Source of the DNA: a bacterium
GTDB taxonomy: Bacteria; SZUA-79; Acidulodesulfobacterales; Acidulodesulfobacteraceae
DNA length: 64,000 nucleotides
NCBI GenBank assembly: GCA_003232385.1
Contig: QIJE01000028.1
Span: forward strand, 155,064-219,063
Reading direction: 5' to 3'
How positions within the stretch are numbered: the stretch's first letter is position 1; every line of letters starts with the position of its first letter. Position numbers and translations under genes: made by a program. Below the pieces are notes generated by a model. It saw only the letters and a program-made list of their open reading frames with translations. It did not search any database and was not told the DNA's origin. Below are positions 7,754 to 27,379 of the stretch, piece after piece.

Positions 7754-8089
7754 ATGAAATTTAAATACGATATGGAATACGTCTTAAAGATCACCGGGCT
7801 GAGTAAGGAAAATATATCGGAATTACTTAAATATTTTAACGAACTCCCTTTGGTCGCTAAACTTGAGGCCTTTTATATAAGCAAGCTTATAGAGGAAGAG
7901 GATGAATTTGCGTTTCTTCAGCATCATTTTGATAAACAAAAAATAGGCGAGTATGGGTTTTCACTATTCATTCTTGCGGTTAACAGGTTGTATAATTTAG
8001 AAACTAAGGATGCTGCCGATAAGAATCTTTCTTCATACATGCTTAATACTATTGCGAAGATGAAAATGCTCAGGAATCAGGATGAATAA
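7754..8089 (+). CDS. Hypothetical protein of 111 aa, overlapping the dsrN start
   Basis: Intact ORF, co-directional, 8-nt overlap with dsrN. No family recognised. Confidence 0.65.
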   Translation: MKFKYDMEYVLKITGLSKENISELLKYFNELPLVAKLEAFYISKLIEEEDEFAFLQHHFDKQKIGEYGFSLFILAVNRLYNLETKDAADKNLSSYMLNTIAKMKMLRNQDE

Positions 8090-9560
8090 TATTAAAAGCG
8101 GCGTTAAGCATGATAATGAAAGGAATGGGGCTGTTAATGGCATTTATATAGCCGCCGCTAAAAGGAATTCCGGTAAAACTACCGTTTCTATCGCGTTATC
8201 CCGCATATTTAAAAATAGAGGTTTATCCGTTCAGCCGTTTAAGAAAGGCCCCGATTTTATAGATTCGATGTGGCTCAGTATTGCGTCCGGTAAAAAAATT
8301 TATAATTTAGATTTTTATTTTATGCCCAGAAATAAAATAAAAGCACATTTTTTGGCGCATTCTTTGGGTTCGGATATCAGTATCGTCGAAGGAAATCACG
8401 GATTGCACGATTCCTTGGATATGCGCGGAAGGTCTTCCAACGCCGAAATGGCAAAATTATTGGGTCTTCCTGTGATTTTCCTGATAGACGTCGGAGAGCT
8501 GAACAGGGGAGTGGTTCCGCTTATAAGGGGTTTTCAGCAATTTGACAGGGACGTGAATATAAAGGGAATAATTCTCAATAAAGTCCATAGCAAGAGGCAT
8601 GAAAAAAATTTAATAAGAGCAATTCATTATTATACCGATTTAAAAATCGTGGGCAATATTCCGAATAATTTGGAATATTCCATAAAACAAAGACATCTCG
8701 GTCTCTTATCCACTCTTTCTTCCGAAGAAAGAGAAAATTTCGTTGCAGATATGTCCTCTAAGATTTCAGATTTTATAGATACGGACAGTATTGTAAAGAT
8801 TTCTAAAATATCGAAAAAATCTTGTTCCGGCGTTAAAGATTTAACGGTTTTGCCACTGAACAAAAACAAGAGAATTACTCGGAATACCGTTAAAATAGGC
8901 ATTGCTTATGACAATGCATTTAATTTTTATTACAACGAAAATATCGAAGCCCTTGAGAGATTAGGATGCGAAATAATAAAATTTTCTCCGCTCAAAGATG
9001 CGTTTCTTCCCGACGTAGATGCATTTTATATAGGCGGTGGGTTTCCGGAAATTTTTTCCGGTGAGCTTCAAGCAAATATAAATATAAGAAAGGAAATGAA
9101 ACGAAGAATAGAGGAGGGTATTCCGGTTTATGCGGAATGCGGGGGGCTCATGTATCTATGCAAAAGCATATCTTACGAAAATAATTTTCATGAAATGGTC
9201 GGGGCGATAGATGCAGACGTGAAATTCACAAAAAAACCCAAGGGACACGGTTATACGAAACTCAGCCCTTTTTTTTACGATAGGAAAGAAGGATTATGGT
9301 TTAATAAAATTAAGTCAATAAAGGGGCATGAATTTCATCATTCGTTCATAGATATGCCTTCCGGTATTATCGGCGACTTAGTTTTTGACGTAAAAAAGGG
9401 TTTTGGGGTTAACGGTACGGGGGACGGTATTGCGTATAAGAATGTCCTCGCGGGATATACCCATATCTATTCGGCTTCTTCTTCCGGATGGTTTAAAAAT
9501 TGGGTAGCCTTCATAAAAAAAACTAAAACCGTTTCGCAAAAAGGCGAGTTTTTAACATAA
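8082..9560 (+). CDS. dsrN: Cobyrinate a,c-diamide synthase family protein (DsrN, presumed siroheme amidase)
   Basis: IAAAKRNSGKTTVSIAL P-loop, FPEIFSGELQAN, YAECGGLMYL glutamine amidotransferase motif; adjacent to dsrAB. Confidence 0.9.
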   Translation: MNNIKSGVKHDNERNGAVNGIYIAAAKRNSGKTTVSIALSRIFKNRGLSVQPFKKGPDFIDSMWLSIASGKKIYNLDFYFMPRNKIKAHFLAHSLGSDISIVEGNHGLHDSLDMRGRSSNAEMAKLLGLPVIFLIDVGELNRGVVPLIRGFQQFDRDVNIKGIILNKVHSKRHEKNLIRAIHYYTDLKIVGNIPNNLEYSIKQRHLGLLSTLSSEERENFVADMSSKISDFIDTDSIVKISKISKKSCSGVKDLTVLPLNKNKRITRNTVKIGIAYDNAFNFYYNENIEALERLGCEIIKFSPLKDAFLPDVDAFYIGGGFPEIFSGELQANINIRKEMKRRIEEGIPVYAECGGLMYLCKSISYENNFHEMVGAIDADVKFTKKPKGHGYTKLSPFFYDRKEGLWFNKIKSIKGHEFHHSFIDMPSGIIGDLVFDVKKGFGVNGTGDGIAYKNVLAGYTHIYSASSSGWFKNWVAFIKKTKTVSQKGEFLT

Positions 9561-9902: not shown

Positions 9903-11096
9903 ATGGGTAAAAAACATGAAACCCCGCTTCTTGACGAACTAAAAAAGGGAAAGTGGGTCAGTTTTGTCAGGGAAATCGAAAGAGCGGCTGAGAAAAGCGA
10001 AAGAACTGAAGACCTTTTAGGTCAGGTTGAGCAATCTTACAGGGATAAAGTTACTCACTGGAAACATGGAGGCATGGCAGGTGTAAAGGGATACGGAGCC
10101 GGAATGGTCGGCAGATTTACCGAATTTCCAGATAAATATCCCGGCGTTAAAGAGTGTCATTCAATGAGAATTAACCAAGTGTCGGGCTTTTTTTACAACT
10201 CGGATGTTCTCAGAAAGATTGCAGGTATCGCTGAGAAACATGGTGGAGGGCTTTTGAATTTACACGGTTCCACCGGAGATATTCAAATTTTAGGTCTTAG
10301 ACAGGATGAAGCAGAAGAAGCTTTTCAGGCATATGCAGAATTAGGATTTGATTTAGGCGGAGGCGGTTCCGATCTGAGGACTCCTTCCTGCTGCCTAGGC
10401 CAGGCAAGATGCGAGTTCGCTAATTATGATACCCTTAAGATTTGCTATGATTTAACGCAAGCGTATCAGGACGAAATGCATAGGCCGCTTTTTAATTATA
10501 AATTCAAATTTAAATTTTCCGGCTGCGCAAATGACTGTGTTGCATCGGCTTCGAGGTCGGATATGGCTTTTATCGGGACGTGGAAGGATAGCATAAAAAT
10601 AAATCAGGATGAAGTAAAAAATTACGTAAAGAAATTGAATGTCCAGAAGTATGTTATTGATAAATGTCCTACAAAATGCATGTGGTTCGAAGAAGATAAT
10701 CTCGTCATAGATGATCCTAACTGTGTTAAATGTATGCATTGTATAAATGAAATGCCTAAGGCATTGAGGCCGGGAGATGAAAAAGGCGCATCTATTTTAT
10801 TAGGCGCTAAAGCACCGTTAGTTACCGGTCCCAGGATGGGCATGATGTTCATTCCGTTTTACGATGTTTTGGAAGACAGCAAAAATAATTATGAATGGTT
10901 GAAGCAGTTAATAAGCAATATATGGGATTTCTGGGATGAATACGGCGTTACGAGAGAGAGAATAGGAGAACTTATGCAGAGGGTCGGAGTCGTAACTTTC
11001 TTGGAAGGGATAGGATTAGAACCTATACCGGAGATGGTCGACCATCCGAGAAGCAATCCGTTTATTAAATTTGAGGACGAGGAAGAAAACGATTGA
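9903..11096 (+). CDS. dsrA: Dissimilatory sulfite reductase alpha subunit
   Basis: TPSCCLGQARCEFANYDTLKICYDLTQAYQDEMHRPLFNYKFKFKFSGCANDCV and a ferredoxin insert CPTKCMW...CVKCMHCINEMP. Confidence 0.97.
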   Translation: MGKKHETPLLDELKKGKWVSFVREIERAAEKSERTEDLLGQVEQSYRDKVTHWKHGGMAGVKGYGAGMVGRFTEFPDKYPGVKECHSMRINQVSGFFYNSDVLRKIAGIAEKHGGGLLNLHGSTGDIQILGLRQDEAEEAFQAYAELGFDLGGGGSDLRTPSCCLGQARCEFANYDTLKICYDLTQAYQDEMHRPLFNYKFKFKFSGCANDCVASASRSDMAFIGTWKDSIKINQDEVKNYVKKLNVQKYVIDKCPTKCMWFEEDNLVIDDPNCVKCMHCINEMPKALRPGDEKGASILLGAKAPLVTGPRMGMMFIPFYDVLEDSKNNYEWLKQLISNIWDFWDEYGVTRERIGELMQRVGVVTFLEGIGLEPIPEMVDHPRSNPFIKFEDEEEND

Positions 11097-11171
11097 TTTC
11101 ACTGATGCAGGATATAATTATTTAATTTTTGTTTAATTAAAATTGTCATATATAAATATTTGGAGGTTGTT

Positions 11172-12257
11172 ATGCCGGAAGAGGCTAAAAATAAAAGATT
11201 GACGGACATTGGTCCACATGACTTTCATGATTATTTACCACCTGTTATCAAAAAAAATTACGGCAAATGGGCATATCACGAAATCTTAGATGCCGGAAGC
11301 ATGGTACATGTTGCGGAAAGCGGCGATAAATTATATACGGTAAGAGTCGGTTCTCCAAGATTGGTAAGCGGTAGCTTTGTTAGAGATTTGTGTGATTTAG
11401 CGGATAAATATTGCAGCGGCTACTTAAGGTTCACTACAAGAAACAATGTTGAGTTTTTACTTGAAGATGAAAAAAATATTGAACCCCTTAAACAGGATAT
11501 CGCCAAATTAGGCTTAGCCGCAGGGGGTATTGGAAATGTAGTTGCAAATATCGTTCATACACAGGGCTGGGTTCACTGTCATACTTCTGCCAGTGATGCA
11601 TCCGGTGTCGTAAAATCCGTTATGGATGACTTATATGAATATTTTGTTGAAGAAAAATTGCCGGCAAAAGTCAGAATTGCTTTTGCGTGTTGCCTTAATA
11701 TGTGCGGTTCGGTCGCTTCGTCAGATATTGCCATACTCGGAACGCACAGAAAGCCGCCTAGAATAAATCAGGAGAGGCTTTTAAATTTATGTGAAATACC
11801 GAGTACTATTGCGGCATGCCCGACTAACTCCATAAGACCCGATACTCAGGACGGTAAACAGACCTTAAGGATTAACGAGGAAACCTGTGTATTTTGCGGA
11901 AGTTGTTATACGGTTTGTCCCGCGATGCCTATTGCGGACCCTGCCACTGACGGGCTTTCCATATGGGTTGGAGGTAAAGTGTCCAATGCGAGAACAAAGC
12001 CTACATTTTCGAAATTAGTTATTCCGTTCATTCCTAACGACCCGCCTAGATGGCCTAAGGTAGTTGAAGCGGTAAAGACGATATTGGATGCATATAAAGA
12101 GGGAGCGGAGTCCGGGGAAAGGGTTGTCGAATGGATAGAGAGGATCGGCTGGCCGAGGTTCTTTAAAATAACCGGGTTTAAATTTACTAAATATCACGTG
12201 GATGACTTTAGACTTGCCGAAACCACGATGAACTATTCGTCTCATACAAGGCTTTAA
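11172..12257 (+). CDS. dsrB: Dissimilatory sulfite reductase beta subunit
   Basis: [61 protein letters not shown] before the ATG at 11172 favours that start over the upstream TTG at 11160. Confidence 0.97.
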
Positions 12258-12291: not shown

Positions 12292-12531
12292 ATGACCGAC
12301 GAAACAAAAAAAAGGTTGGAGGATAAAATTATCGGAACCATTAAAGAATATACCGGTAAAAAGAGATTTAAGCCTATAGATATAGTAAAAGAGATGGAAA
12401 AAGAATTTTCCGGAGACGGCTTATCTAAAGCTGAGATTAAGGGAACCTTGAAGGAAATAATGGACGGAGGTAAGTTGGTCTATGGGTATGCCGGAGGGAG
12501 CTATCTGGCCATTCCCGAAGAAGGTAATTAA
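12292..12531 (+). CDS. dsrD: DsrD-like small winged-helix protein
   Basis: 79 aa directly after dsrB; pattern K(R/F)F...L...EIK..LKEIM..GKLVY...GGSYLAIPEE resembles DsrD, but divergent. Confidence 0.75.
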   Translation: MTDETKKRLEDKIIGTIKEYTGKKRFKPIDIVKEMEKEFSGDGLSKAEIKGTLKEIMDGGKLVYGYAGGSYLAIPEEGN

Positions 12532-12584: not shown

Positions 12585-14297
12585 ATGCTTGAATTAAAAA
12601 AGATTAAAAAACCGACGAAGGTGTCGCTGAGTTCGGGAGTAGGGATGGAGCAGTCGCCTTTTAGGCCTAAATATGTCGAAAAAAAGCCCCCCTGCATGGA
12701 TACTTGTCCTAATGGTACGAGAGTCAGGGATTACATACAGTATATAGCGCAGAGCGAATCATACGAGAGACCGTTGGATGAATCGTTGACGGAGGCTTTT
12801 TATCTGCTTACCGAATCTAATCCCCTGCCCTCTACGACCGGAAGGGTATGTCCCCATCCGTGCGAGGATGAATGCAATCGTAAACATAAGGATAAGTCTG
12901 TTGCGATAAACGCGATAGAAATGTTTGTGGGAGATTACGGAATAAAAAATAATTTAAGTTTTAAAAAACTTTCGGATACCCAAAGGAAGGAAAGAATTGC
13001 CGTAGTAGGCGCCGGTCCTGCCGGTCTTTCCTGTGCCTACCATTTATCCATGAGGGGTTACGGGGTTACCATATATGAAAAATTTAAAGAACCGGGCGGA
13101 TACTTAAGATACGGGATACCTTCTTTTAGGCTTCCGCTTGACGTAATAGATGCAGAAGTAAAACGCATTAAGGATTTAGGGGTAGAAATAAAGACCGGGG
13201 TCGATATCGGTTCCGATATCTCTATAGACAAACTTAAATCAGACTATGATGCTGTTTTTGTTGCCATTGGCACACATGAGCCTATCAAGATGAGAATGGA
13301 TGGAGCTGATGCACCTAATGTTTATACGGGTATTGAGTTTCTTCAAAAAGCCGCTTCCGGAGAAATTAAAGATGCCGGCAAAGAAGTAGTCGTTATAGGG
13401 AGCGACAGCGCAATGGACGCCGGTATGGTTGCGAAAAGACTTGGCGCAAACGTAACGTTTATTTATAACAAGGGAACACTGAACGATATTTCCGAGATAG
13501 AAGAAAAAGGCTCTACGGAGGTTAAGGAAGGTCATGCCGAAGGGATTAATTTTGAATTCTTATTCGCTTTGGATAAGATTATCACGGAAAACGGAAAAGC
13601 GACAACGGTACAGTTGAAAAAGATGAAGCTTTCCGAAAAAGACGCTTCAGGAAGGGTTCATCCCGTCATAATAGAGGGCGGCGTGAATCTTGGCCTTAAG
13701 CTTGACACATTGATATATTCTTTTGGACAAAAGCCTGATTACAAAGGATTAGAGGGTTTTACGAAAAACGAAAACAACGAATTTCTCAATGTTAATGATA
13801 AGTATCTGATTGCAAACGAAGATAAGGTTTTTGCAGGGGGAGATATATTAAAATTCGGATTAGTGACGGATGCTATCGGCATGGGCAGGTATGCCGCGTA
13901 CTCTATACATGAAAAGTTGAGCGGGGAACCGGTAAAGAAAGACAAGAGAACGGTTGTCAAGTACGGAGATGCGGTAAACTATGAAGGTAAAAATATGTAT
14001 TTGGCATATTTTCAAGAAGCGGAAAGGCATGAAAGAACGGCAAGAGACGCTTCTGTCAGGATTAACGACTTTGATGGCATATTAAACGATTTAAGCATGG
14101 ATGATTTAATTGCGGAGGCTAAAAGATGTATTAGCTGCGGAATGTGCTTCGATTGCGGCAGCTGTTTTGAATATTGCTCTCAGAGTGCCATTAAAAAATT
14201 ACCTAAAGGACAGCATTTTGAATTTCATCTTGAGACATGTAACGGCTGTAAAAAATGTGCCGAAAGTTGTCCTTGCGGCTATATAGACATGATTTAG
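12585..14297 (+). CDS. dsrL: DsrL-like FAD/iron-sulfur NAD(P)H oxidoreductase (GltD family)
   Basis: PPCMDTCPNGTRVRDYIQ, VVGAGPAGLSCAYHLSMRGY, C-terminal CISCGMCFDCGSCFEYC and CNGCKKCAESCPCG; located between dsrD and dsrC. Confidence 0.88.
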   Translation: MLELKKIKKPTKVSLSSGVGMEQSPFRPKYVEKKPPCMDTCPNGTRVRDYIQYIAQSESYERPLDESLTEAFYLLTESNPLPSTTGRVCPHPCEDECNRKHKDKSVAINAIEMFVGDYGIKNNLSFKKLSDTQRKERIAVVGAGPAGLSCAYHLSMRGYGVTIYEKFKEPGGYLRYGIPSFRLPLDVIDAEVKRIKDLGVEIKTGVDIGSDISIDKLKSDYDAVFVAIGTHEPIKMRMDGADAPNVYTGIEFLQKAASGEIKDAGKEVVVIGSDSAMDAGMVAKRLGANVTFIYNKGTLNDISEIEEKGSTEVKEGHAEGINFEFLFALDKIITENGKATTVQLKKMKLSEKDASGRVHPVIIEGGVNLGLKLDTLIYSFGQKPDYKGLEGFTKNENNEFLNVNDKYLIANEDKVFAGGDILKFGLVTDAIGMGRYAAYSIHEKLSGEPVKKDKRTVVKYGDAVNYEGKNMYLAYFQEAERHERTARDASVRINDFDGILNDLSMDDLIAEAKRCISCGMCFDCGSCFEYCSQSAIKKLPKGQHFEFHLETCNGCKKCAESCPCGYIDMI

Positions 14298-14346: not shown

Positions 14347-14688
14347 ATGGCAAGTTTTGACTATAATGGGAAGACGATTGAAACAGATGACGAGGGGTAT
14401 CTTCAAAATTTAGTTGACTGGGACAAGGGTCTTGCTGAAGTTCTCGCAGAACAGGAAGGCGTGGAACTTACCGACAAACACTGGAAACTTATCGAATGGA
14501 TAAGGGATTATTTTCAAAAGTATCAAGTAGCTCCGGCTATTAAATCTCTTGCAAGAGAGGTTATGAAGCTTGAAAATTTACCGGACAAAAAGGAAGCAAA
14601 CAGGTTTGTTTATGAATTATTTCCGGAAGGTCCGGCTAAACAGCTTGCTAAAATAGCAGGGCTTCCCAAGCCTACAGGCTGCGTTTAA
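14347..14688 (+). CDS. dsrC: DsrC/TusE family protein with only the penultimate cysteine (CysA)
   Basis: FPEGPAKQLAKIAGLPKPTGCV C-terminus; W-rich DsrC core (HWKLIEWIRDYFQKYQVAPAIKSL). Confidence 0.93.
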   Translation: MASFDYNGKTIETDDEGYLQNLVDWDKGLAEVLAEQEGVELTDKHWKLIEWIRDYFQKYQVAPAIKSLAREVMKLENLPDKKEANRFVYELFPEGPAKQLAKIAGLPKPTGCV

Positions 14689-14833: not shown

Positions 14834-15595
14834 ATGGTGCCTCTTAATTTAACCACGGCAATATTTTTATTATTAACGTATACGGCGGGTTTAATTTTTG
14901 TAATAGGAGTAGTATTAAGAATATATCAATATGCAACAACTCCTCAGCCTATTAAGATTCCTCTTACGCCGGCTCCGTTAACTTCCGGTGGGGCTTTTAT
15001 TCGAATTTTAGGAGAGGTCTTTTTTTTTAGAAGTCTTTTTAGATCTAATAAATGGACATGGATTTTCGGATATGCTTTCCATGTTGCGTTTTTCATTTTG
15101 ATATTTATGCATTTTTTAAGGCATTTTGTGTACGTAAGTCCTTTACCCTGGTGGTACGGCATATTCGTCGGTATAGGAATAGTCTGCGGTATCGTTATGG
15201 TTTTGGCCCTTTTTCTTCTCTTCTTAAGAAGAATAATCGTAGAGCGCGTTAAGTTTATTTCGTTGTTTGCAGATTATATCATACTGATTCTCTTAATGCT
15301 TATAGCGTTAGCAGGCTTGTTTTTGAATTACGTTATATCCCCGACCGCCTTGACTGTAATAGATAAGCATCTTGGTCCTTACGTAAACGGGATCTTGACC
15401 TTGCAATTCGCAAATATTCCGTCAAGCCCTCTTTTTTTAATTCATTATTCGCTCGTGTTGCTACTCATAGCTTATATTCCATTCAGCAAAATAATGCATT
15501 TTGTGGGGATATTCTTTTCACCTACAAGAATTATGTCTGATAATCCCTTGGAGAAGAGATATTATAAGCCGGGCGCAAAAGACTTGTCGATTTAA
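14834..15595 (+). CDS. dsrM: DsrM, heme-b membrane subunit (NarI-like)
   Basis: Multiple TM helices with His residues in FHVAFFILIFMHFLRHF and LIHYSLV...KIMHF; directly upstream of dsrK. Confidence 0.87.
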   Translation: MVPLNLTTAIFLLLTYTAGLIFVIGVVLRIYQYATTPQPIKIPLTPAPLTSGGAFIRILGEVFFFRSLFRSNKWTWIFGYAFHVAFFILIFMHFLRHFVYVSPLPWWYGIFVGIGIVCGIVMVLALFLLFLRRIIVERVKFISLFADYIILILLMLIALAGLFLNYVISPTALTVIDKHLGPYVNGILTLQFANIPSSPLFLIHYSLVLLLIAYIPFSKIMHFVGIFFSPTRIMSDNPLEKRYYKPGAKDLSI

Positions 15596-15688: not shown

Positions 15689-17176
15689 ATGGCTAAGCCA
15701 AAAGAGAAATATAAGGTTCCTGTTTTAGATGGAAAAATTCCTATACCTAAAATCGTTCCGGGGGCTTTTGCATATGAGCATATGATTGGGGCTCAAGAAG
15801 AAGATATGCGGGCATTAGGTTTTCCGGCTAAACTACAAGACGGTTGGAAGGAAAAGGCCATCGGTGTGTTTAAAGAGATACTCGACCACAATAAAGCGGT
15901 CAGAGATTATATGGATATTTGCGTCAGATGCGGTGCTTGCACGGATAAATGTCAATTCTTTTTAGGGACTGCGGATCCCAACAATATGCCTGTTCAGAGG
16001 CAAGAGCTTATGAGGAAGGTATACAGATATTACTTCACTCCCTCCGGATTTTTTAAGACGCTTTCTAATTCTCAAGAGTTGACCGAAGAAGTTTTGAAAG
16101 ATTGGTACACATATTATTATCAGTGTTCGGAGTGCAGAAGATGTTCCCTTTTTTGTCCTTATGGTATTGATACCGCGGAAATTACTATGGCGGCGAGGCA
16201 TATAATGGATTCAATAGGATTAGGGCATAAGTACGCAACCGAGGTTATTCATAAAGTATATAAAACAGGTAATAATATAGGGATACCGCCGCTTGCTTTG
16301 AGGCGTACGCTTGACGACTTGGAAGAGGAAATGAATGAAGAATCGGGTAAAGACGTCAAGATTCCTATGGATGTGGAGGGTGCCGAGGTTTTATTGGTGC
16401 CGCCTTCTGCGGATTTTTTTGCAATGCCACATATGGAATCGCTCAAGGGGTATGCAAAGGTGTTTCATAAAGCGGGTATAAGCTATACTGTTTCTTCATA
16501 TGCCTCAGAAGCCGGTAATTTCGGTATGTTTTTGGGGAGCTATAAAAATGCCAAAGAAATTAATAAACGAATCTGGGATGACGCCAGGAGATTAAAGGTT
16601 AAGAGAGTTATCATGGGTGAATGCGGGCATGCATGGAGAGCCGCATATAATTATTCTAATACCATGAACGGTCCCTTTGATTTCTTAGATAGTAAATATA
16701 AACAGCCTACGCATATCTGTGATTTTACCTTAGGACTTGTAAAAGACGGGGTTATAAAGCTTGACCCTTCGGCTAACGACGACAAGGTGGTCACATTTCA
16801 TGATTCGTGTATGATAGCGCGGTCATCGAGAATAGGTGATTTTGCCGGTGGTCAGTTTGTCATACCGAGGGAGCTTATTAAAGCGGCAGCTAACAAATTC
16901 GTTGAGTTAAGGGTAGGTACGACTAAAGAAAAGACCTTTTGTTGCGGAGGCGGAGGCAGTTTGCTGGCAGAAGAGGTTATGAACGTTCGTATAGCCGGGG
17001 CTATGCCGAGAATGCAGACGATAAAAGAAGCGGTTGATAATCATGGTGTTAACTTCTGCGCTTGTATCTGTGCAATTTGTAAGACCCAGTTTACGAAAAT
17101 GTTTCCTATTTATGGGTTTGATGCCGAAATGGTTGGAGGAATACATCAGTTAGTCAGTAACGCAATATTAATGTAA
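15689..17176 (+). CDS. dsrK: DsrK, HdrD-like iron-sulfur subunit
   Basis: CVRCGACTDKC, CSECRRCSLFCPYG, FHDSCMIARSSRIGDF and FCCGGGGSLLAEE...CACICAICK. Confidence 0.93.
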   Translation: MAKPKEKYKVPVLDGKIPIPKIVPGAFAYEHMIGAQEEDMRALGFPAKLQDGWKEKAIGVFKEILDHNKAVRDYMDICVRCGACTDKCQFFLGTADPNNMPVQRQELMRKVYRYYFTPSGFFKTLSNSQELTEEVLKDWYTYYYQCSECRRCSLFCPYGIDTAEITMAARHIMDSIGLGHKYATEVIHKVYKTGNNIGIPPLALRRTLDDLEEEMNEESGKDVKIPMDVEGAEVLLVPPSADFFAMPHMESLKGYAKVFHKAGISYTVSSYASEAGNFGMFLGSYKNAKEINKRIWDDARRLKVKRVIMGECGHAWRAAYNYSNTMNGPFDFLDSKYKQPTHICDFTLGLVKDGVIKLDPSANDDKVVTFHDSCMIARSSRIGDFAGGQFVIPRELIKAAANKFVELRVGTTKEKTFCCGGGGSLLAEEVMNVRIAGAMPRMQTIKEAVDNHGVNFCACICAICKTQFTKMFPIYGFDAEMVGGIHQLVSNAILM

Positions 17177-17234: not shown

Positions 17235-17585
17235 ATGAAATTCGGTATTCTTGTCAAAGACGGTCCGTACATGCATCAGGCTATGGATACTGCATACAAC
17301 TTTATAGTTGCGGCAATGGAGGCGGGGCATGAGATAACCGGCGTGTTTTTTTATAACGACGGAGTTTATAACAGATGTAGCGCTATGGAACCCCCGCGGG
17401 ATGAAAGAAATATTATGAAAATACTTTCAGAGCTTGAGCTTAAAGGAGTAAAAATGATAGTATGCGTCGCCGCAGGAAAGAGAAGGGGAGTCGTTGATAC
17501 AACGGTTTGCGATGCTAAAGAGATATCCGGTCTCGGACAGCTTTTAGAGCTTTGCATAGTGTCCGACAGGATGATAACATTTTAA
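17235..17585 (+). CDS. dsrE: Sulfurtransferase subunit DsrE
   Basis: KFGILVKDGPYMHQAMDTAYNF...VFFYNDGVYN and MIVCVAAGKRRGV (Cys retained), ISGLGQLLELCIVSDRMITF. Confidence 0.93.
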   Translation: MKFGILVKDGPYMHQAMDTAYNFIVAAMEAGHEITGVFFYNDGVYNRCSAMEPPRDERNIMKILSELELKGVKMIVCVAAGKRRGVVDTTVCDAKEISGLGQLLELCIVSDRMITF

Positions 17586-17652: not shown

Positions 17653-18027
17653 ATGTCTGAACAAGAAAAAACTAAGGTAATGTTTATTTGCAGGACAGCC
17701 CCGTATGGAGTTGCTTTTGAGCAGGAAGCAATTGAAGCAATGGTTATGTTCGGTGCATACGAGCAGGATGTAAGCGTAGCTTTTTTGGACGATGGGGTTT
17801 TCTCTCTAAAGAAGGGGCAGGATCCTTCTTTACTCGGAAAGAAAAATTTTTCGAAGACATATGAGATCTTAAAGGATGATTTTGATATTTCCAATATCTA
17901 TGTAGAGAAGGAATCACTGGAAGAAAGAGGCTTAAGTGAAGGAGACCTTGCTGCAGAGGTTGAAATTTTGGATAGAAATGCATTGAGACAAAGAATGAAC
18001 GAGATGAAAGCACTTTTATCATTTTAA
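17653..18027 (+). CDS. dsrF: Sulfurtransferase subunit DsrF
   Basis: RTAPYGVAFEQEAIEAMVMFGAYEQDVSVAFLDDGVFSL; between dsrE and dsrH. Confidence 0.93.
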   Translation: MSEQEKTKVMFICRTAPYGVAFEQEAIEAMVMFGAYEQDVSVAFLDDGVFSLKKGQDPSLLGKKNFSKTYEILKDDFDISNIYVEKESLEERGLSEGDLAAEVEILDRNALRQRMNEMKALLSF

Positions 18028-18075: not shown

Positions 18076-18375
18076 ATGCTTCACATTATTAAAAAGTCGC
18101 CCTATGAAACCAATGCCTTGAATGATTCTATTAATTATTTAATGGAAAATGATATAGTCTTATTAATTGAAGACGCCGTATATACGGTGAAAAAAGGAGG
18201 CAAATTTGAAGATACCGTAAAAGGTATTTTGCAAAACAATAAAGTTTATTGTCTTGAAGCGGATATAAAAGCGAGGGGGATTTCGGAAGGCGAAATCGTA
18301 GAAAACGTCAAATTAATAGATTACAAGGGATTTGTAGAGAAGGTCTGCGAACAAAATCCGGTAACATGGCCGTAA
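18076..18375 (+). CDS. dsrH: DsrH (TusB-like), with the expected cysteine replaced by Ser
   Basis: LHIIKKSPYETNALNDSINYLMENDIVLLIEDAVY...KARGISE; third gene of dsrEFH. Confidence 0.9.
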   Translation: MLHIIKKSPYETNALNDSINYLMENDIVLLIEDAVYTVKKGGKFEDTVKGILQNNKVYCLEADIKARGISEGEIVENVKLIDYKGFVEKVCEQNPVTWP

Positions 18376-18569: not shown

Positions 18570-19793
18570 ATGGCATTAGTCAATCCTCACGGCAAGGAAA
18601 AGAAATTAAAGCCCTTATTACTTTCTGGCCCCGAGCTTGAAGATGCAAAGAGTTATGCGAAAACGTTAAAAAAGCTGTCTATGACGTCAAGAGAAACATC
18701 TGATCTCATTATGATGGGAATAGGGGCGTTTACCCCGTTAGAAGGATTTATGGGCAAGAACGACTGGAAAGGTGTTTGTGATAATTTCACTATGGAAGAC
18801 GGAACGTTTTGGCCTATACCCATAACCCTTTCCATTGACAAGGAAATGGCAGCCGATGTTAAAATAGGTGAAGATATAACATTACTTGACTTGGAAACCT
18901 CTGAAATTATGGGAATAATTACGGTAAGTGAGAAATATTCCATCGACAAGGCATATGAGTGCGAGAAGATATTTAAAACGACCGATACGGAGCATCCCGG
19001 GGTTCGAAAAGTTATGGCCCAGGGAGACATTAATGTAGCCGGAAAAGTTAAGGTTTTAAGCGAAAGCTACTATCCCACTAAATTTAAAGACATATATATG
19101 CGTCCCTTAGAAGTTAGAAAAATATTTGAGGAAAAGGGATGGAGTACGGTAGCTGCTTTTCAAACCAGAAATCCAATGCATCGTTCTCACGAATACCTTG
19201 CAAAGGTGGCGATAGAGACTACGGACGGCGTTTTAATCCATCAACTTATCGGTAAGTTGAAGCCGGGCGATATACCAGCAAACGTGAGGGCAGTTGCCAT
19301 TAATACCCTTATAGACAAATATTTTGTGAAAAATACTATCGTGCAGGCAGGCTACCCTATGGAAATGAGATATGCCGGACCGAGAGAAGCGTTACTTCAT
19401 GCGGTTTTCAGGCAAAATTACGGTTGTTCTCACTTGATTGTCGGCAGGGATCACGCAGGAGTAGGGGATTATTACGGACCGTTTGATGCTCATAAAATAT
19501 TTGATGAAATTCCGAAAAATGCTCTTGAATTAAAACCGTTTAAAATGGATTGGACGTTTTATTGCCGTAAGTGCGACGGTATGGCATCGACAAGGACGTG
19601 TCCTCATCCGAAAGAAGACAGGCTTGTTTTAAGTGGAACTATGCTTAGAAAGCTCTTATCGGAAGGACAGGAAATCCCGGATCATTTTTCAAGGATAGAA
19701 GTATTGGCGATATTAAAAGATTATTATGCTTCCCTTTCTAAAGGCGACAAGGTTGACGTCAAGTTGAATAAGGCATCAAGAGGAGAAATATAA
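18570..19793 (+). CDS. sat: Sulfate adenylyltransferase (ATP sulfurylase)
   Basis: [51 protein letters not shown]. Confidence 0.97.
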
Positions 19794-19848
19794 TATAGAG
19801 CGTCATTTTATTTAATAATAATAATAATATAATTAAGGAGGTATGAAA

Positions 19849-20283
19849 ATGCCAAGTTTTGTAATTGCAGAAAAATGCGACGGTTGCAAGGGGAGAGATA
19901 AGACTGCATGTCAATATATCTGCCCTAACGACCTTATGGTCCTCAATAAGGACATGATGAAGGCTTACAACCAGGAACCCGATCAGTGCTGGGAGTGCTA
20001 TAACTGTGTAAAAATATGTCCCCAGTCTGCTGTTGAGATTAGGGCATATCAGGATTTTGCTCCTATGGGTGCTTCTGTTATTCCAATGCGTGGCTCTGAT
20101 TCGATAATGTGGACTATAAAGTATCGGAACGGCAAGATTAAGAGATTTAAGTTTCCGATCAGAACGACACCGGAGGGTGGCATAGATCCGTATCAGGGAA
20201 TACCGGAAGTAATTAACGAGGATTTAAAGAGTGAAATCTTATGCGATGAAATCGGTCAAACGCTTATCGTTCCAAAAAAATAA
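19849..20283 (+). CDS. aprB: Adenylylsulfate reductase beta subunit
   Basis: CDGCKGRDKTACQYICPNDLM and CWECYNCVKICPQSAVEIR. AAGGAGG spacing favours the second ATG (19849) over the ORF start at 19843. Confidence 0.97.
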   Translation: MPSFVIAEKCDGCKGRDKTACQYICPNDLMVLNKDMMKAYNQEPDQCWECYNCVKICPQSAVEIRAYQDFAPMGASVIPMRGSDSIMWTIKYRNGKIKRFKFPIRTTPEGGIDPYQGIPEVINEDLKSEILCDEIGQTLIVPKK

Positions 20284-20350: not shown

Positions 20351-22273
20351 ATGGCTGAACTAAAGGGTTCAATGACAAGTGCTGAAGTTTTAAACAACTA
20401 CACTATAGAAGAGATCGATACAGATGTTCTGATTGTAGGCGGAGGTATGGTTGGATGCGGAGCGGCATTTGAAATTAAAAAATGGGCTCCGAAAGATATG
20501 AAAATAACTATGGTCGAAAAGGCTGCGATAGATAGAAGCGGAGCCGTTGCAATGGGTCTTTCGGCAATCAATACGTATCTTGGAGACAATACTCCTGAAG
20601 ATTATGTCAAACATGTTGCTAACGACCTAATGGGAATCGTCAGGGAAGATTTAATATACGATGTAGGCAGACATGTCGATGCTTCGGTTAAGTTATTTGA
20701 AAAATTAGGGCTTCCTATATTTAAAGAAGAAGAGAACGGCAAAAGCATTGAAGAGGGTGGTAAGCCTCTTAGAGCGGGAAGATGGCAGATAATGATACAC
20801 GGAGAGTCTTATAAGGTTCTTGTTGCCGAAGCTGCAAGGAAAGCAATTGGTAATGAAAATATTTATGAAAGGATTTTTATAACAGAACTTCTTATGGACG
20901 AAAAGCATGAAAATAGGGTTGCGGGTGCAATTGGTTTCAGCTTGAGAGAAGCGAAGATTTATATATTTAAAGCGAAATCCGTAATTATGGCTTGCGGCGG
21001 AGCGGTCAATGTTTTTAGGCCGAGGTCTCAGGCGGAAGGAATGGGAAGAACATGGTATGCTATATGGAATGCCGGTTCTACATATGCAATGGGATATGAA
21101 GCCGGAGCGGAAATGACGACTATGGAAAACAGGTTTGTCCCTAATAGGTTCAAAGACGGTTACGGTCCTGTAGGCGCATGGTTTACCCTGTTTAAAGCGA
21201 GGGTCCTAAATGCACACGGTGAGGATTATATGCAAAAGTGGGGAGATATGCTTAAGGATTTCCCTCCGTACGGTCTTGCTAAGGTTCCGGCAACATGCCT
21301 TTGGAACCATGTTATGTTAAAGGATTGGATGGAAGGTAACGGCCCGTTTTATATGAATACGTCGGGAGCCATGAAGGCTCTTTTTGAAACGCTTCCTGAA
21401 AAAAGAAAAAAATCGCTTGAAGCCGATGCATGGGAAGATTTCTTGGATATGACAGTTTCGCAGGCCGGAATTTGGGCTGCAAATGACATTGATCCTGCAG
21501 AGACTAATTCTGAAGTTATGCCGACAGAGCCATATTTTCTCGGTTCGCATTCCGGAGCATGTGGAATGTGGGTTAGCGGACCTGCTGATCTTTCACCGAA
21601 AGAATATCAATGGGGCTATAACCGTATGACAACCGTAAACGGTCTTTTCACCGGCGGAGACGGCGTTGGAGCTTCGGGTCATAAATTTTCATCCGGTTCC
21701 TATGCAGAGGGAAGAATTGCTGCAAAATCTGCCGTAAGGTTTGTTTTGGACGATTCGGGATTTACTCCTACCGTTCATACCGACATTAAGGTTATTGCCG
21801 AAAAGATATACGGGCCTATGATTACGTATGAAAAGTTTAAGGGTTATTCAACCGAGCCGAATATTAATCCGAATTATATTAGGCCGAGACTGTATCTTTT
21901 CAGGTTGAATAAACTTATGGATGAGTATGTTGCCGGTACTTCTACATTCTATAGAACAAGTGAAGCAAATCTTTTGAAAGGATTGGAACTCCTGAATAAA
22001 CTCAAGGAAGATTCATCTAAACTTGCTGCTTCTAATCTGCACGAGTTAATGAGGGCATGGGAAAATTACCATAGGTCTGTTGTCGGAGAGCTCCATTTAA
22101 GGCACGTATTATTTAGGGAAGAAACCAGATACCCCGGCTTCTATTACAGAACGGATCGTCCTAAGTTAGACGAAAAGAACTGGAAATTATTTGTTAATTC
22201 CAAACTTAATAAGACTACGGGACAACCGGAATTATTCAAAAAGCCGTATATTGAGTTAGTTCCTAAGGACTAA
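20351..22273 (+). CDS. aprA: Adenylylsulfate reductase alpha subunit
   Basis: DVLIVGGGMVGCGAAFEIKKW, MENRFVPNRFKDGYGPVGAWF, GSHSGACGMWVSGP...FTGGDGVGASGHKFSSGSYAEGRIAAK. Confidence 0.98.
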   Translation: MAELKGSMTSAEVLNNYTIEEIDTDVLIVGGGMVGCGAAFEIKKWAPKDMKITMVEKAAIDRSGAVAMGLSAINTYLGDNTPEDYVKHVANDLMGIVREDLIYDVGRHVDASVKLFEKLGLPIFKEEENGKSIEEGGKPLRAGRWQIMIHGESYKVLVAEAARKAIGNENIYERIFITELLMDEKHENRVAGAIGFSLREAKIYIFKAKSVIMACGGAVNVFRPRSQAEGMGRTWYAIWNAGSTYAMGYEAGAEMTTMENRFVPNRFKDGYGPVGAWFTLFKARVLNAHGEDYMQKWGDMLKDFPPYGLAKVPATCLWNHVMLKDWMEGNGPFYMNTSGAMKALFETLPEKRKKSLEADAWEDFLDMTVSQAGIWAANDIDPAETNSEVMPTEPYFLGSHSGACGMWVSGPADLSPKEYQWGYNRMTTVNGLFTGGDGVGASGHKFSSGSYAEGRIAAKSAVRFVLDDSGFTPTVHTDIKVIAEKIYGPMITYEKFKGYSTEPNINPNYIRPRLYLFRLNKLMDEYVAGTSTFYRTSEANLLKGLELLNKLKEDSSKLAASNLHELMRAWENYHRSVVGELHLRHVLFREETRYPGFYYRTDRPKLDEKNWKLFVNSKLNKTTGQPELFKKPYIELVPKD

Positions 22274-22441: not shown

Positions 22442-23746
22442 TTGAGTAAGTCAAATAATGAAAATCCTGTTCTTATAATCGGCGGAGGGCATAGCGGGGT
22501 TTCGACTGCTCTTGAAATTACGGAGGCAGCCAATAAAAAAGTTTATATAGTCGAAAAAAAGCATTACATAGGCGGAAGAGTTTTACAAATGTATAAGTAT
22601 TTTCCTAAGTTGTGTCCGCCGTTTTGTGGATTTGAGATAAACGTTAAACGAATAAAATCTTCAATTTCCGACAATATAGAGTTTTTTGTTTCATCCGTCG
22701 TAGAAGAAATAAATAAGGAAAAAAATGGAAACGGATATACGGTTAAAATTAGACAAAAACCGCAGTATATAAATGATAACTGCACAATTTGCGGGGAATG
22801 CGTCGCGGCATGTCCGGAGAGCAGGCCTAACGATTTTAACTATGATATGGATATGACGAAGGCTATATATCTTCCTAATATATCGGCATTTCCGTCGAAG
22901 TATGCCGTAGATGATGAATACTGCAAATTTTCTTCGTGTAAAAAGTGCGAAGAAGCGTGTAAATATAGTGCGATTGATCTTAATGCGAAAGAGAATACTT
23001 TTGAGATTAATGTTTCGAATATTATTTTTGCTACAGGCTGGAAACCTTACAGCGTTGAGAAATTGAAAAATTTAGGTTTCGGTAAGTTTAAAAATGTCAT
23101 TACAAACGTAATGATGGAAAGACTGGCTGCGGATAGCGGTCCGACGAAAGGTAAAATATTAAGACCGTCGGACAATAAAAATGTTAACAATGTAGTTTTT
23201 ATTCAGTGTGCCGGTTCAAGAAATGAAAAACACCTTCCTTACTGCTCGGCAGTTTGCTGTATGGCTTCTTTAAAACAGGCGCTTTATTTGAGGGATAAAA
23301 ATCCGTCGTCTTCCCCGACTATTTTTTATATAGACTTAAGGACTCCCGGAAGATACGAAAAATTTCTCAACAAAGCCGTATGTGATGAAAATATTAAATT
23401 TAATAAGGGTGTTGTAGGGAAAATATCCGAGGACCATGCGTCCGGCGATCTCATACTTGACGTAGAAGATATACTTTCAGGTAAGAAAATAAAATTTAAG
23501 ACTGAAATGGTGGTTCTGGCTGCAGGGATGTATCCTAACATAAAAGACGATTTAAGCGAGATAAAAATAGGCGACGATGTCAAAATAGATTTAGATGAGA
23601 ACGGGTTTATATTCAACGAAAACTTTGCAGGCGGTATTTTTTCCGCCGGAGTTGCCAAGTTCCCTTTGGATGTCTATATGTCCGGTCAATCGGCAACGTC
23701 AGCGGCACTTTCCGTACTTCAATACGATCATAATATCGATAAATAA
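22442..23746 (+). CDS. qmoA: Quinone-interacting membrane-bound oxidoreductase subunit QmoA (HdrA-like)
   Basis: VLIIGGGHSGVSTALEITEA, GGRVLQMYKYFPKLCPPFCGFEINVKRI, CTICGECVAACPESRPNDF, CAGSRNEKHLPYCSAVCCMASLKQA. TTG start. Confidence 0.94.
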   Translation: MSKSNNENPVLIIGGGHSGVSTALEITEAANKKVYIVEKKHYIGGRVLQMYKYFPKLCPPFCGFEINVKRIKSSISDNIEFFVSSVVEEINKEKNGNGYTVKIRQKPQYINDNCTICGECVAACPESRPNDFNYDMDMTKAIYLPNISAFPSKYAVDDEYCKFSSCKKCEEACKYSAIDLNAKENTFEINVSNIIFATGWKPYSVEKLKNLGFGKFKNVITNVMMERLAADSGPTKGKILRPSDNKNVNNVVFIQCAGSRNEKHLPYCSAVCCMASLKQALYLRDKNPSSSPTIFYIDLRTPGRYEKFLNKAVCDENIKFNKGVVGKISEDHASGDLILDVEDILSGKKIKFKTEMVVLAAGMYPNIKDDLSEIKIGDDVKIDLDENGFIFNENFAGGIFSAGVAKFPLDVYMSGQSATSAALSVLQYDHNIDK

Positions 23747-23824
23747 TATAAGCAAAGTAAAAACAAAGTAGGCGACAGGTAAAAGTAAATAAGGATATAG
23801 ATATAGTTTTAATAAGGAGTGAAA

Positions 23825-26128
23825 ATGGATAATAATGTAGGGGTTTATGTTTGTTCCGGATGTGATATAGGAAAAAGTCTTAACGTGGAAAGACTTATTA
23901 ATACCGCAAATGATGCTAAACCGGCTGTATGTATGAGTCATGAATTTCTTTGCGGAGGAGAAGGCGTAAGCCTCATAAAAAAAGACATTACCGAAAAATC
24001 AATTAACAAGGTGGTAATAGTCGCATGCTCTATGCGCTCAAAGCAGGATGTATTTAATTTCGATCCATTGTCTATATATACCGAAAGAGTTAACATTAGA
24101 GAGCATGTTGTAAGGATAAGTCCTCCCAATAACGACAATACTCAATCCCTTGCCGAAGACTATATAAATATGGGAATTGCCAAGGCTAAGAAGGCCGAAC
24201 CCCCGGTGCCGCTTATTCAGGATCTGAATAAAACGATTCTTGTTGTCGGCGGCGGCGTAACGGGTCTTAACTCGGCAATAAATTCCGCTAAAGCGGGATA
24301 TAATGTCGTATTAGTTGAAAAGAAGCCTAATTTTGGCGGTTTTCCGTATTCAAAGTATAAGAAATGGGAAACCAAACCCCCTTTTGATAAGAATGTTTAC
24401 ATAAAGGAGGGTCTTGACCGGCTTATAGGCGAAGTTGAAGCTTCAAATAATATCAAAATTTATAAAAATTCTAAAATAAGGTCAATATCCGGTGCTCCGG
24501 GAAGATTTAGCGTTGAAATAGAACCGGCGAATGAAAATGATAAGGTCGATGTAGCAAATGAGGATGTCGGGGCTGTTGTCGTTGCGACCGGTTGGAAGCC
24601 TTATGAAGCAAAAAAATTGGATTATTTAGGTTACGGTTTGTCGCCTGATATTTTGACGAACGTGGAGCTTGAAGAACTTTACTCCGACTTATATCAGGAC
24701 GGCAAAAATGAAAATTTTACCGTTAGCAGAAAGTCTAACAATGAGCAGGTTAAGTCTATTGCTTTCATACAATGTGCGGGTTCGAGAGATGAAAATCACC
24801 TGCCTTATTGTTCTACTGTTTGCTGTATGTCTTCCCTTAAGGAAGCCGCTCTGATTAGAAAGAATAATCCGGATGCGAATATTTATATAATATATAGAGA
24901 TATAAGAACTCTTGGAGAATACGAGAATTTTTATAGGAAGATGCAGGACGATGAAAGAATCTTTATGGTTAAAGGGGTTATCTCCGGCGTATCTTACGAT
25001 AAGACAAATAATATTATAGATTTAAATGTAAAGGATACGCTTTTTAAGGGAGATATAACTTTAAATGTCGAAATGGTTGTGCTGGCTGCAGGAATGGTTC
25101 CTAATTCCGGTGAAGTCGCCATTAGCGGAGAGATGAAAGCAGAAGTAAATAACGGTTCCGACGAAACGCAGGGGGCATCTTGCGAAGCGGCAGACCCCGA
25201 CATGTCGGCACAGGTTGCTAAAAGCGGAATATTGAATCTTACATACAGGCAGGGCAAGGAGATGCCGGATCTTGTTTACGGTTTTCCGGATTCTAATTTT
25301 ATATGTTTTCCTTATGAATCAAGGAGAACGGGTATATATTCGGCGGGTTCCGTCAGGGCGCCTATGGATACTGTTTTTTCCGTCGATGATGCAAAGGGTG
25401 CGACCTTGAAAGCGATACAATGCATCGAACAGACCTCAAAGGGCAGAGCGGTGCATCCTCGTTCTAACGATATGACATATCCTTTGTTTGATTTGTCGCG
25501 GTGCACACAGTGTAAAAGGTGTACTGAGGAGTGTCCGTTCGGCGCAATTGACGAAGACGAAAAAGGGACGCCCGAGCCTAATCCGGAAAGATGCAGGAGA
25601 TGCGGAGTTTGTATGGGCGCATGCCCGGTAAGAATAATATCTTTTAAGAATTATTCTCCGGATATTGTAGCGTCTATGATAAAAAGTCTTTATATTCCGG
25701 AAGAAGAGGAGGACGATAATTACAGGATTCTCGTGTTCGCATGTGAAAACGATGCCTATCCTGCGTTTGATGTATTAGGTATTAACAAAATGAATTTATC
25801 GTCTAATATAAGAGTAATACCCGTCAGATGTTTAGGCTCCATAAATAACGTCTGGTATGCCGATGCTCTATCTAAGGGCATAGACGGAATATTATTGCTG
25901 GGTTGCAAATACGGTGATGATTATCAGTGCCATTTTACGAAAGGTTCGGAGCTTGCGTCTTACAGAATGGTAAATCTTAAGGAAACTCTCACAAGGCTTG
26001 TTCTCGAAGAAGAAAGAATAAAACAAATTCAACTTGAATTCTCCGATTACATGAAACTTCCGGAAATAGTGGAAGATTTCGTAAATACGATAAAATCACT
26101 CGGACCTAATCCATATAAAGGTTTTTGA
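23825..26128 (+). CDS. qmoB: QmoB (HdrA-like with C-terminal MvhD-like domain)
   Basis: VYVCSGCDIG, VVGGGVTGLNSAINSAKAGYNVVLVEK, CTQCKRCTEECPFGAI...CRRCGVCMGACPVRII, C-terminal LGCKYGDDYQCHFTKGS. GGAG spacing favours the ATG at 23825 over the ORF start (GTG, 23819). Confidence 0.94.
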   Translation: MDNNVGVYVCSGCDIGKSLNVERLINTANDAKPAVCMSHEFLCGGEGVSLIKKDITEKSINKVVIVACSMRSKQDVFNFDPLSIYTERVNIREHVVRISPPNNDNTQSLAEDYINMGIAKAKKAEPPVPLIQDLNKTILVVGGGVTGLNSAINSAKAGYNVVLVEKKPNFGGFPYSKYKKWETKPPFDKNVYIKEGLDRLIGEVEASNNIKIYKNSKIRSISGAPGRFSVEIEPANENDKVDVANEDVGAVVVATGWKPYEAKKLDYLGYGLSPDILTNVELEELYSDLYQDGKNENFTVSRKSNNEQVKSIAFIQCAGSRDENHLPYCSTVCCMSSLKEAALIRKNNPDANIYIIYRDIRTLGEYENFYRKMQDDERIFMVKGVISGVSYDKTNNIIDLNVKDTLFKGDITLNVEMVVLAAGMVPNSGEVAISGEMKAEVNNGSDETQGASCEAADPDMSAQVAKSGILNLTYRQGKEMPDLVYGFPDSNFICFPYESRRTGIYSAGSVRAPMDTVFSVDDAKGATLKAIQCIEQTSKGRAVHPRSNDMTYPLFDLSRCTQCKRCTEECPFGAIDEDEKGTPEPNPERCRRCGVCMGACPVRIISFKNYSPDIVASMIKSLYIPEEEEDDNYRILVFACENDAYPAFDVLGINKMNLSSNIRVIPVRCLGSINNVWYADALSKGIDGILLLGCKYGDDYQCHFTKGSELASYRMVNLKETLTRLVLEEERIKQIQLEFSDYMKLPEIVEDFVNTIKSLGPNPYKGF

Positions 26129-26140
26129 TAGGAGGTTAAA

Positions 26141-27316
26141 TTGGAAAATATTATTATAAAGACCGATAATAGCTTAGTAAGTTATATAAAAAACGTTGGC
26201 GAAAGCAATTTCAAGAAATGTTTCCAGTGCGGAACATGTTCGGCGGTTTGCCCATTGTCTACGGAAGACAACCCCTTTCCTCGGAAAGAGATGATATGGG
26301 CAGGGTGGGGGTTGAAAGAGAAATTGACAAGCGATTTGGATCCGTGGTTATGTTATTATTGCGGTGAGTGTTCAAAAAATTGCCCGAGAAACGCCGAGCC
26401 CGGAGAATTAATGATGTCGCTTCGTCGCTTTCTTGTGGGCGCTTATGACTGGACCGGAATATCAAGGCTTTTATACGGCTCCAAATATGCGGAATATATT
26501 GCACTATTTATAGTGGCACTCATTGTTTTTATCGAATGGGCCATCCTTTTCGGATTATCACCCGCTGCGGGGCTTACGATAAACCAAGCGGTATCTCCGG
26601 ATAAGGTAGATTATTTTTTTGACTGGCCGATGACCGTATTTTTAGGGGCTATGCTCACGTCGTTTATTTACAATATGTACCGCAAAACCGTTTTAAGCGA
26701 TAGCAGCGTTAAGATTCCTTTCAAGCTTTATTTTACGGAAGGGTGGTCGCTGATGTTTAATTTCTTTACACAATACAGGTATGCAAAATGCGACGACGGA
26801 GAAGAATCTTTCTTTAAAAAACTTGCGGACGGAAAGTATAATTTCTGGCTTACGCATCTGTTTCTTATGATAAGTTACGTTGCATTATTTATCGGTATTG
26901 TCTTCTTTTTGAACTGGTTCCAAGAGGAGAACAGCTTTCCGTTTCTCCATATAATTCTATTCGATTATTTTGCAAGCATCGGACTCATATTCGGAACCGT
27001 TTATTTCGTGATTAAAAGGTTTACTAAAAAAATAGAGAGGAGCAAGTTTTCTCACCATACGGATTGGATGTTTATAATACTTCTTTTTTTGACTGCTCTT
27101 ACCGGAATTATACTGCGGGCGGTTATAGTTTATAAATTTCCTACTGCGTTAATATTTTACGTATATTTAGTTCATTTACTGATTTTATTGCCAATGTTGG
27201 TTATAGAAGTGCCGTTTTCCAAGTGGTCTCATTTAGCATACAGACCCGTAGCCGTATACTTTGCTAATTTAAAAGAGAAGGCCAAGAATTTGGGCAATGT
27301 CGAAACAACCGATTAG
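26141..27316 (+). CDS. qmoC: QmoC (HdrC/HdrE-like, heme-b membrane subunit)
   Basis: CFQCGTCSAVCPLSTEDNPFPRKEMIWAGWG, CYYCGECSKNCPRNAEPGELMMSLRR, then TM domain. TTG start after AGGAGG. Confidence 0.94.
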   Translation: MENIIIKTDNSLVSYIKNVGESNFKKCFQCGTCSAVCPLSTEDNPFPRKEMIWAGWGLKEKLTSDLDPWLCYYCGECSKNCPRNAEPGELMMSLRRFLVGAYDWTGISRLLYGSKYAEYIALFIVALIVFIEWAILFGLSPAAGLTINQAVSPDKVDYFFDWPMTVFLGAMLTSFIYNMYRKTVLSDSSVKIPFKLYFTEGWSLMFNFFTQYRYAKCDDGEESFFKKLADGKYNFWLTHLFLMISYVALFIGIVFFLNWFQEENSFPFLHIILFDYFASIGLIFGTVYFVIKRFTKKIERSKFSHHTDWMFIILLFLTALTGIILRAVIVYKFPTALIFYVYLVHLLILLPMLVIEVPFSKWSHLAYRPVAVYFANLKEKAKNLGNVETTD

Positions 27317-27379
27317 CGTTAGTAATTATTAATAATTTAATATGATTGATTCATTTAAATCTTAATTAGGAGGATGGTT

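Follow-up and report, generated by a model that had tools for sequence, protein, structure and literature searches.

The window, by which we mean the whole 64,000-nucleotide stretch analysed here, carries a dsrC gene (positions 14347..14688, + strand) whose product keeps CysA (C112) and has Ala (A101) at the CysB position, and this CysB-less DsrC is a trait of the window's lineage (Acidulodesulfobacterales/SZUA-79, uncultured bacteria of acid-mine type, hereafter the family), common to Desulfurella, and not a lone oddity. In the accepted view, sulfite reduction is coupled to energy conservation through the trisulfide that joins CysA and CysB of DsrC; the presence of CysB also serves to distinguish a real DsrC from TusE. 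Judging from the sequences compared, we favour the reading that the window protein would be a true dsr-operon DsrC that has lost CysB and serves DsrAB as a persulfide co-substrate with a single thiol, that of CysA; we assign this reading a probability of roughly one half.

A DsrC with a single cysteine

The dsrC gene, with AGGAGG upstream of its ATG, encodes a protein of 113 residues that ends in FPEGPAKQLAKIAGLPKPTGCV before the stop (also given as GPAKQLAKIAGLPKPTGCV). Both TIGR03342 (134.8 bits, cut-off 53.5) and PF04358 (133.8 bits, cut-off 24.9) match the protein over its full length, which together with the penultimate CysA places it in the DsrC/TusE family. C112 (tgc, 14680..14682, + strand, read from the sequence) is the only Cys among the 113 residues. 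A101, encoded by gct at 14647..14649 (+ strand), a codon with synonymous variation in relatives, is the residue 11 before CysA, where the solved two-Cys DsrCs (1yx3, 1sau, 2v4j, 1ji8) have Cys. The original prediction, a DsrC that lacks CysB and keeps CysA, is thus correct, positions included. Of the features of a canonical DsrC, dsrAB and dsrMK are encoded alongside the window gene, whereas the Cys 11 residues before CysA is Ala in the family and Val in Desulfurellales. CysA without CysB is a feature of TusE, and the TusE equivalog model (PRK11508, NCBIfam) gives the window protein 109.3 bits, under its cut-off of 191.

Two ways of explaining the missing Cys away had been raised at the outset, a two-Cys DsrC encoded elsewhere and an Ala codon produced by an assembly error, and the window's own genome, an assembly of 40 contigs at 95.5% completeness, leaves some room for either. 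We regard both as extremely unlikely. Within this genome no second PF04358 gene is found, the dsrC gene being single, and a two-Cys DsrC is likewise missing from all other genomes of the family, among them several of 97-100% completeness. Alignment of the related DsrCs gives Ala at position 101 in 25/25 copies from 23 family genomes, encoded by GCT in 8, GCC in 10 and GCA in 7; the residue is thus held while the DNA drifts, which excludes chance or an assembly error. C112 is present in every family copy. Outside the family, Desulfurella amilsii (99% complete) has two DsrCs, neither with CysB.

According to Stockdreher 2012 (PMC3397948), the second Cys is strictly conserved in organisms with a sulfur-based energy metabolism; in organisms without DsrAB, members of the protein family nearly always carry Ala, Ser or Thr at the CysB site. 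In a survey of 393 genomes, a CX10C copy is present in every genome outside the window's family and Desulfurellales whose dsrA passes the cut-off and whose DsrC could be read. TusE-like Ala/Thr forms otherwise occur in genomes without dsrA or in genomes that also encode a two-Cys DsrC, and among the matches listed the closest DsrCs of other named genomes all have CysB. Separately, CysB-less copies on outgroup contigs proved to be RspA-like paralogues without CysA, and the same contigs carry a two-Cys DsrC. That a complete dsr series should include a DsrC with CysA only had been called unexpected, and such a protein is indeed a real exception to the 2012 rule. A prior report of a DsrAB-linked DsrC without CysB was not found in the open-licence literature, and the accessible parts of PMC6776010, PMC10504309 and PMC7596348 do not mention that CysB is missing.

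Across the family genomes, dsrC, dsrA and dsrE are co-present or co-absent: G001, G012, G015, G017 and G019 have none of the three and G027 has neither dsrC nor dsrA, the only mismatches being G025, whose contig ends within dsrB, and G029, which is 59% complete and has a dsrB match only. Due to the homology of DsrEFH and DsrC to TusBCD and TusE, the dsrEFH-dsrC genes might be taken for a tRNA-thiolation set (TusBCD-TusE) sitting by chance in a dsr operon. We consider this very unlikely because MnmA-family genes occur in G001, G012, G015, G017 and G019, all of which lack dsrC and dsrE; the family dsrC tracks dsrA and does not, in the manner of TusE, accompany MnmA-dependent thiolation independently of dsrAB. 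Moreover, Desulfurellales have this DsrC without DsrE, and the single-Cys DsrC lies apart from the TusE-like proteins in the best tree. As to distribution within genus g2, the same five genomes (90-99% complete) lack dsrA, dsrC and dsrE, while G006 and G009 retain all three.

Desulfurellales and the descent of the cassette

The second lineage without CysB is in culture. In Desulfurellales, G265, G393, G394 and G407 carry dsrA-B-D-L-C-M, plus dsrK where the contig extends that far, with a DsrC that ends in EGPARQLVRYAGLSKPTGCV and has Val at the CysB position; G393 is the D. amilsii TR1 assembly and G265 is probably Desulfurella acetivorans A63. Three Desulfurella-like genomes have a second DsrC, ending in KKAAKIAGIKKPVGCV, from which CysB is also missing, so that the D. 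amilsii assembly contains no two-Cys DsrC at all. A DsrE gene is absent from the Desulfurellales genomes carrying the Val-type DsrC. D. amilsii respires thiosulfate, supposedly via DsrAB, DsrC and DsrMK (PMC5317093), and its proteomics is said to show no Dsr protein link to sulfur disproportionation (PMC12998232), in which case the in vivo role in D. amilsii would rest on thiosulfate/sulfite reduction. At locus L133 of G265, frame breaks interrupt both dsrL and dsrK in this assembly, unlike in G393 and G394; the published annotation for the probable D. acetivorans A63 gives DsrC and DsrMK as absent, and dsrC is intact at this locus.

In the best DsrC tree, the single-Cys dsr-operon DsrCs form one clade (100/100) that lies among two-Cys oxidative-type DsrCs and apart from two separate TusE-like groups. 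The clade persists when the C-terminal arm is removed (SH-aLRT 99). On the arm-removed alignment, which at 93 columns is too short, an AU test fails to reject the grouping of this clade with TusE-like proteins (p 0.24-0.29). The DsrAs of both lineages also form one clade (100), in this case within the reductive type, and the Desulfurellales sequences branch from among those of the family. The best reading of these trees is a single chimeric cassette that would combine reductive DsrABD with oxidative-type DsrC-MK, would have lost CysB once and would have moved between phyla.

Two divergent dsrABDL types are present within the family, their DsrAs having ~83-88% vs 68-69% identity to that of the window. 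Both types occur in G018 (L205, L230), the other loci being L227, L226, L207 and L211, and the downstream dsrMKEFH is sometimes closely similar between the two, which suggests an exchange of blocks. The DsrL motif reads YNK in 9 sequences and YRR in 8; YNK is reported as unique to Ca. Acidulodesulfobacterium/Acididesulfobacter (PMC7596348). Together with the gene set and the isolated single-family grouping, the YNK of the window accords with Ca. Acidulodesulfobacterales (PMC6776010).

Partner proteins and a putative one-thiol route

The window order is dsrN-like-dsrA-dsrB-dsrD-like-dsrL-dsrC-dsrM-dsrK-dsrE-dsrF-dsrH-sat-aprB-aprA-qmoA-qmoB-qmoC, all on the + strand. A dsrN-like gene of the CobB/CbiA family (8082..9560, TIGR00379) is followed by dsrA (9903..11096), which has the KFKFK motif and encodes A110 in place of the W (or F) of others and N198 in place of their P, by dsrB (11160..12257, profile match), and by a dsrD-like small ORF of 79 aa (12292..12531), which has no match in the profile library and is assigned by its position, size and similarity to ORFs in the same place of other dsr operons (30-82% identity). 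The neighbours of dsrC are dsrL (12585..14297), with type 2 features (R27; YNK at 294-296), and dsrM (14834..15595), which is short (253 aa) and has an extra His97. Further downstream lie dsrK (15689..17176), its Fe-S and CCG cysteines intact, dsrE (TusD; 17235..17585), its active Cys77 present, dsrF (TusC; 17653..18027), with a family-specific Cys13, and dsrH (TusB; 18076..18375), with Ser at the site of the Cys20 equivalent that most others carry. The genes sat (18570..19793), aprB (19843-20283) and aprA (20351-22273) are assigned by profile match, and qmoA, qmoB and qmoC (22442..27316) are HdrA-like, the qmoC model scoring below its cut-off. Position 13 of DsrF is Cys in 16/16 family sequences and Asn in nearly all others (MF[VI]CRTA vs MFVNRKA). 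Directly after qmoABC, a gene for a membrane-bound ion-translocating pyrophosphatase (27374-29449) fits the use of pyrophosphate from sulfate activation. No NrfD-family gene (PF03916, DsrP) is found in the window's own genome or in G004, G005 and G006 (98-100% complete); DsrP is thus absent from these genomes, which have DsrMK alone, without JOP.

With CysB missing, the intramolecular CysA-S-S-S-CysB trisulfide presumably cannot form. Another molecule could supply the second thiol, whether through two DsrCs that share a trisulfide via their CysAs or through a small cellular thiol in place of CysB. The presence of C112 in every copy is in line with such sharing, and DsrK, whose catalytic cysteines are unchanged, might still accept a substrate resembling a disulfide or trisulfide. 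We nevertheless hold this reading to be rather unlikely: no new Cys common and specific to both lineages is found in DsrA, B, D, L, M or K, which argues that no fixed protein partner replaces CysB. Candidate replacements such as C85 and C181 of DsrA or C118 of DsrM were set aside, as they are not common to both groups.

Changes of another kind are found in DsrA. Position 110 is W (rarely F) in all CysB-plus sequences and A, G, S or C in 22/22 distinct sequences of the single-Cys clade, and position 198, elsewhere a Pro that immediately precedes the KxKxK sulfite motif, reads Asn in 22/22; the two changes occur in 0/82 other sequences, 2 of which read V or L only via a one-residue alignment shift. 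By alignment to 3mm5, these positions are alpha-Trp119 and alpha-Pro209 of A. fulgidus (numbering of PMC10229431). The DsrA changes in exactly the clade with single-Cys DsrC would fall near the sulfite pocket, and a distribution of 22/22 against 0/82 is what would be expected if the DsrAB-DsrC chemistry had been retuned. A tryptophan has been described as blocking the second siroheme, and it may be alpha-Trp119. In DsrM, His97, four residues after the conserved H93, is present in all family and Desulfurellales sequences and in 0/76 others. Since a single clade accounts for both the loss of CysB and the DsrA changes, their association amounts to one event and not to repeated covariation, and the DsrA and DsrM changes would best be read as single-lineage correlations with CysB loss, not as proof.

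Taken at face value, the CysA-only arm, which is like that of TusE, the adjacency of dsrL in the operons and the changed DsrA residues near the sulfite pocket might also indicate that DsrC is a mere TusE-like sulfur ferry and no redox co-substrate, DsrAB and DsrL alone reducing sulfite to sulfide. This seems unlikely to us, as dsrMK is retained beside dsrC with its catalytic cysteines intact although a lone-acting DsrAB needs no DsrMK, as the Desulfurellales with such a DsrC lack DsrE, the usual loader, and as Desulfurella has a separate TusE-like paralogue.

We instead prefer the persulfide co-substrate reading; the persulfide-carrier role suggested at the outset is plausible and compatible with all of the evidence. 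As a plausible mechanism, Acidulodesulfobacterales-like bacteria and Desulfurella may reduce sulfite, or run this dissimilatory pathway in reverse, without a DsrC trisulfide, through a persulfide intermediate on one-Cys DsrC, with DsrA retuned around the sulfite pocket and DsrL carrying electrons that DsrMK carries elsewhere; this wider scheme is tentative, and we put it slightly below an even chance. For sulfite reduction, DsrL would supply DsrAB with the electrons needed to reach the S(0) level; DsrAB would then pass the sulfur on as DsrC-CysA-SSH, from which the HDR-like DsrK would set sulfide free by means of two electrons. The electrons would thus be split into ~4 at DsrABL and 2 at DsrMK, in place of 2 and 4, as reasoned from the published trisulfide model. 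The oxidative direction would be open only to bacteria with DsrEFH, which the window encodes: DsrEFH would place sulfur on CysA, and DsrAB would then oxidise it. We deem the persulfide route, in which the DsrC persulfide would be made by DsrAB and either reduced or made by DsrMK, the most economical because CysA alone can be persulfidated and loaded, as in A. vinosum, where CysA alone binds sulfur and takes sulfur from DsrEFH and Cys100 (CysB) is dispensable for this (PMC3397948), and because DsrL, present in every cassette of this clade, would always be at hand as electron donor.

Implications and comparison with known systems

A full operon without CysB in one clade across two phyla means that the trisulfide step, as accepted, may not hold for all lineages, and with D. 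amilsii in culture the essentiality of the trisulfide becomes testable in a natural system. Annotation rules that require CX10C would wrongly drop real dsr-linked DsrCs.

The window DsrC is 50% identical to the oxidative-type DsrC of A. vinosum (1yx3), to whose length class it belongs, and has the same GPAKQ...AGLPKPTGCV arm with CysA penultimate and a place beside dsrMK and, in the window, dsrEFH; unlike the A. vinosum protein, whose CysB is Cys100, it has Ala, preceded by Leu and not by Ala. Like TusE, which has Ala, Ser or Thr at the CysB site, it carries CysA only; unlike TusE, described where DsrAB is absent (PMC3397948), it is encoded inside dsrABDLCMK and tracks dsrA. With the DsrC of Desulfurellales (D. 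amilsii TR1) it shares the cassette, the 113-aa form, the absence of CysB and the clade, the differences being Ala in the window vs Val, and dsrE in the window vs genomes without DsrE. Finally, the window resembles the published dsr operon of Acidulodesulfobacterales (Tan 2019, PMC6776010; PMC10504309), which has dsrAB, dsrD, dsrL and dsrEFH together, DsrMK only, a DsrC that is basal on the oxidative side and a DsrL with YNK (PMC7596348).
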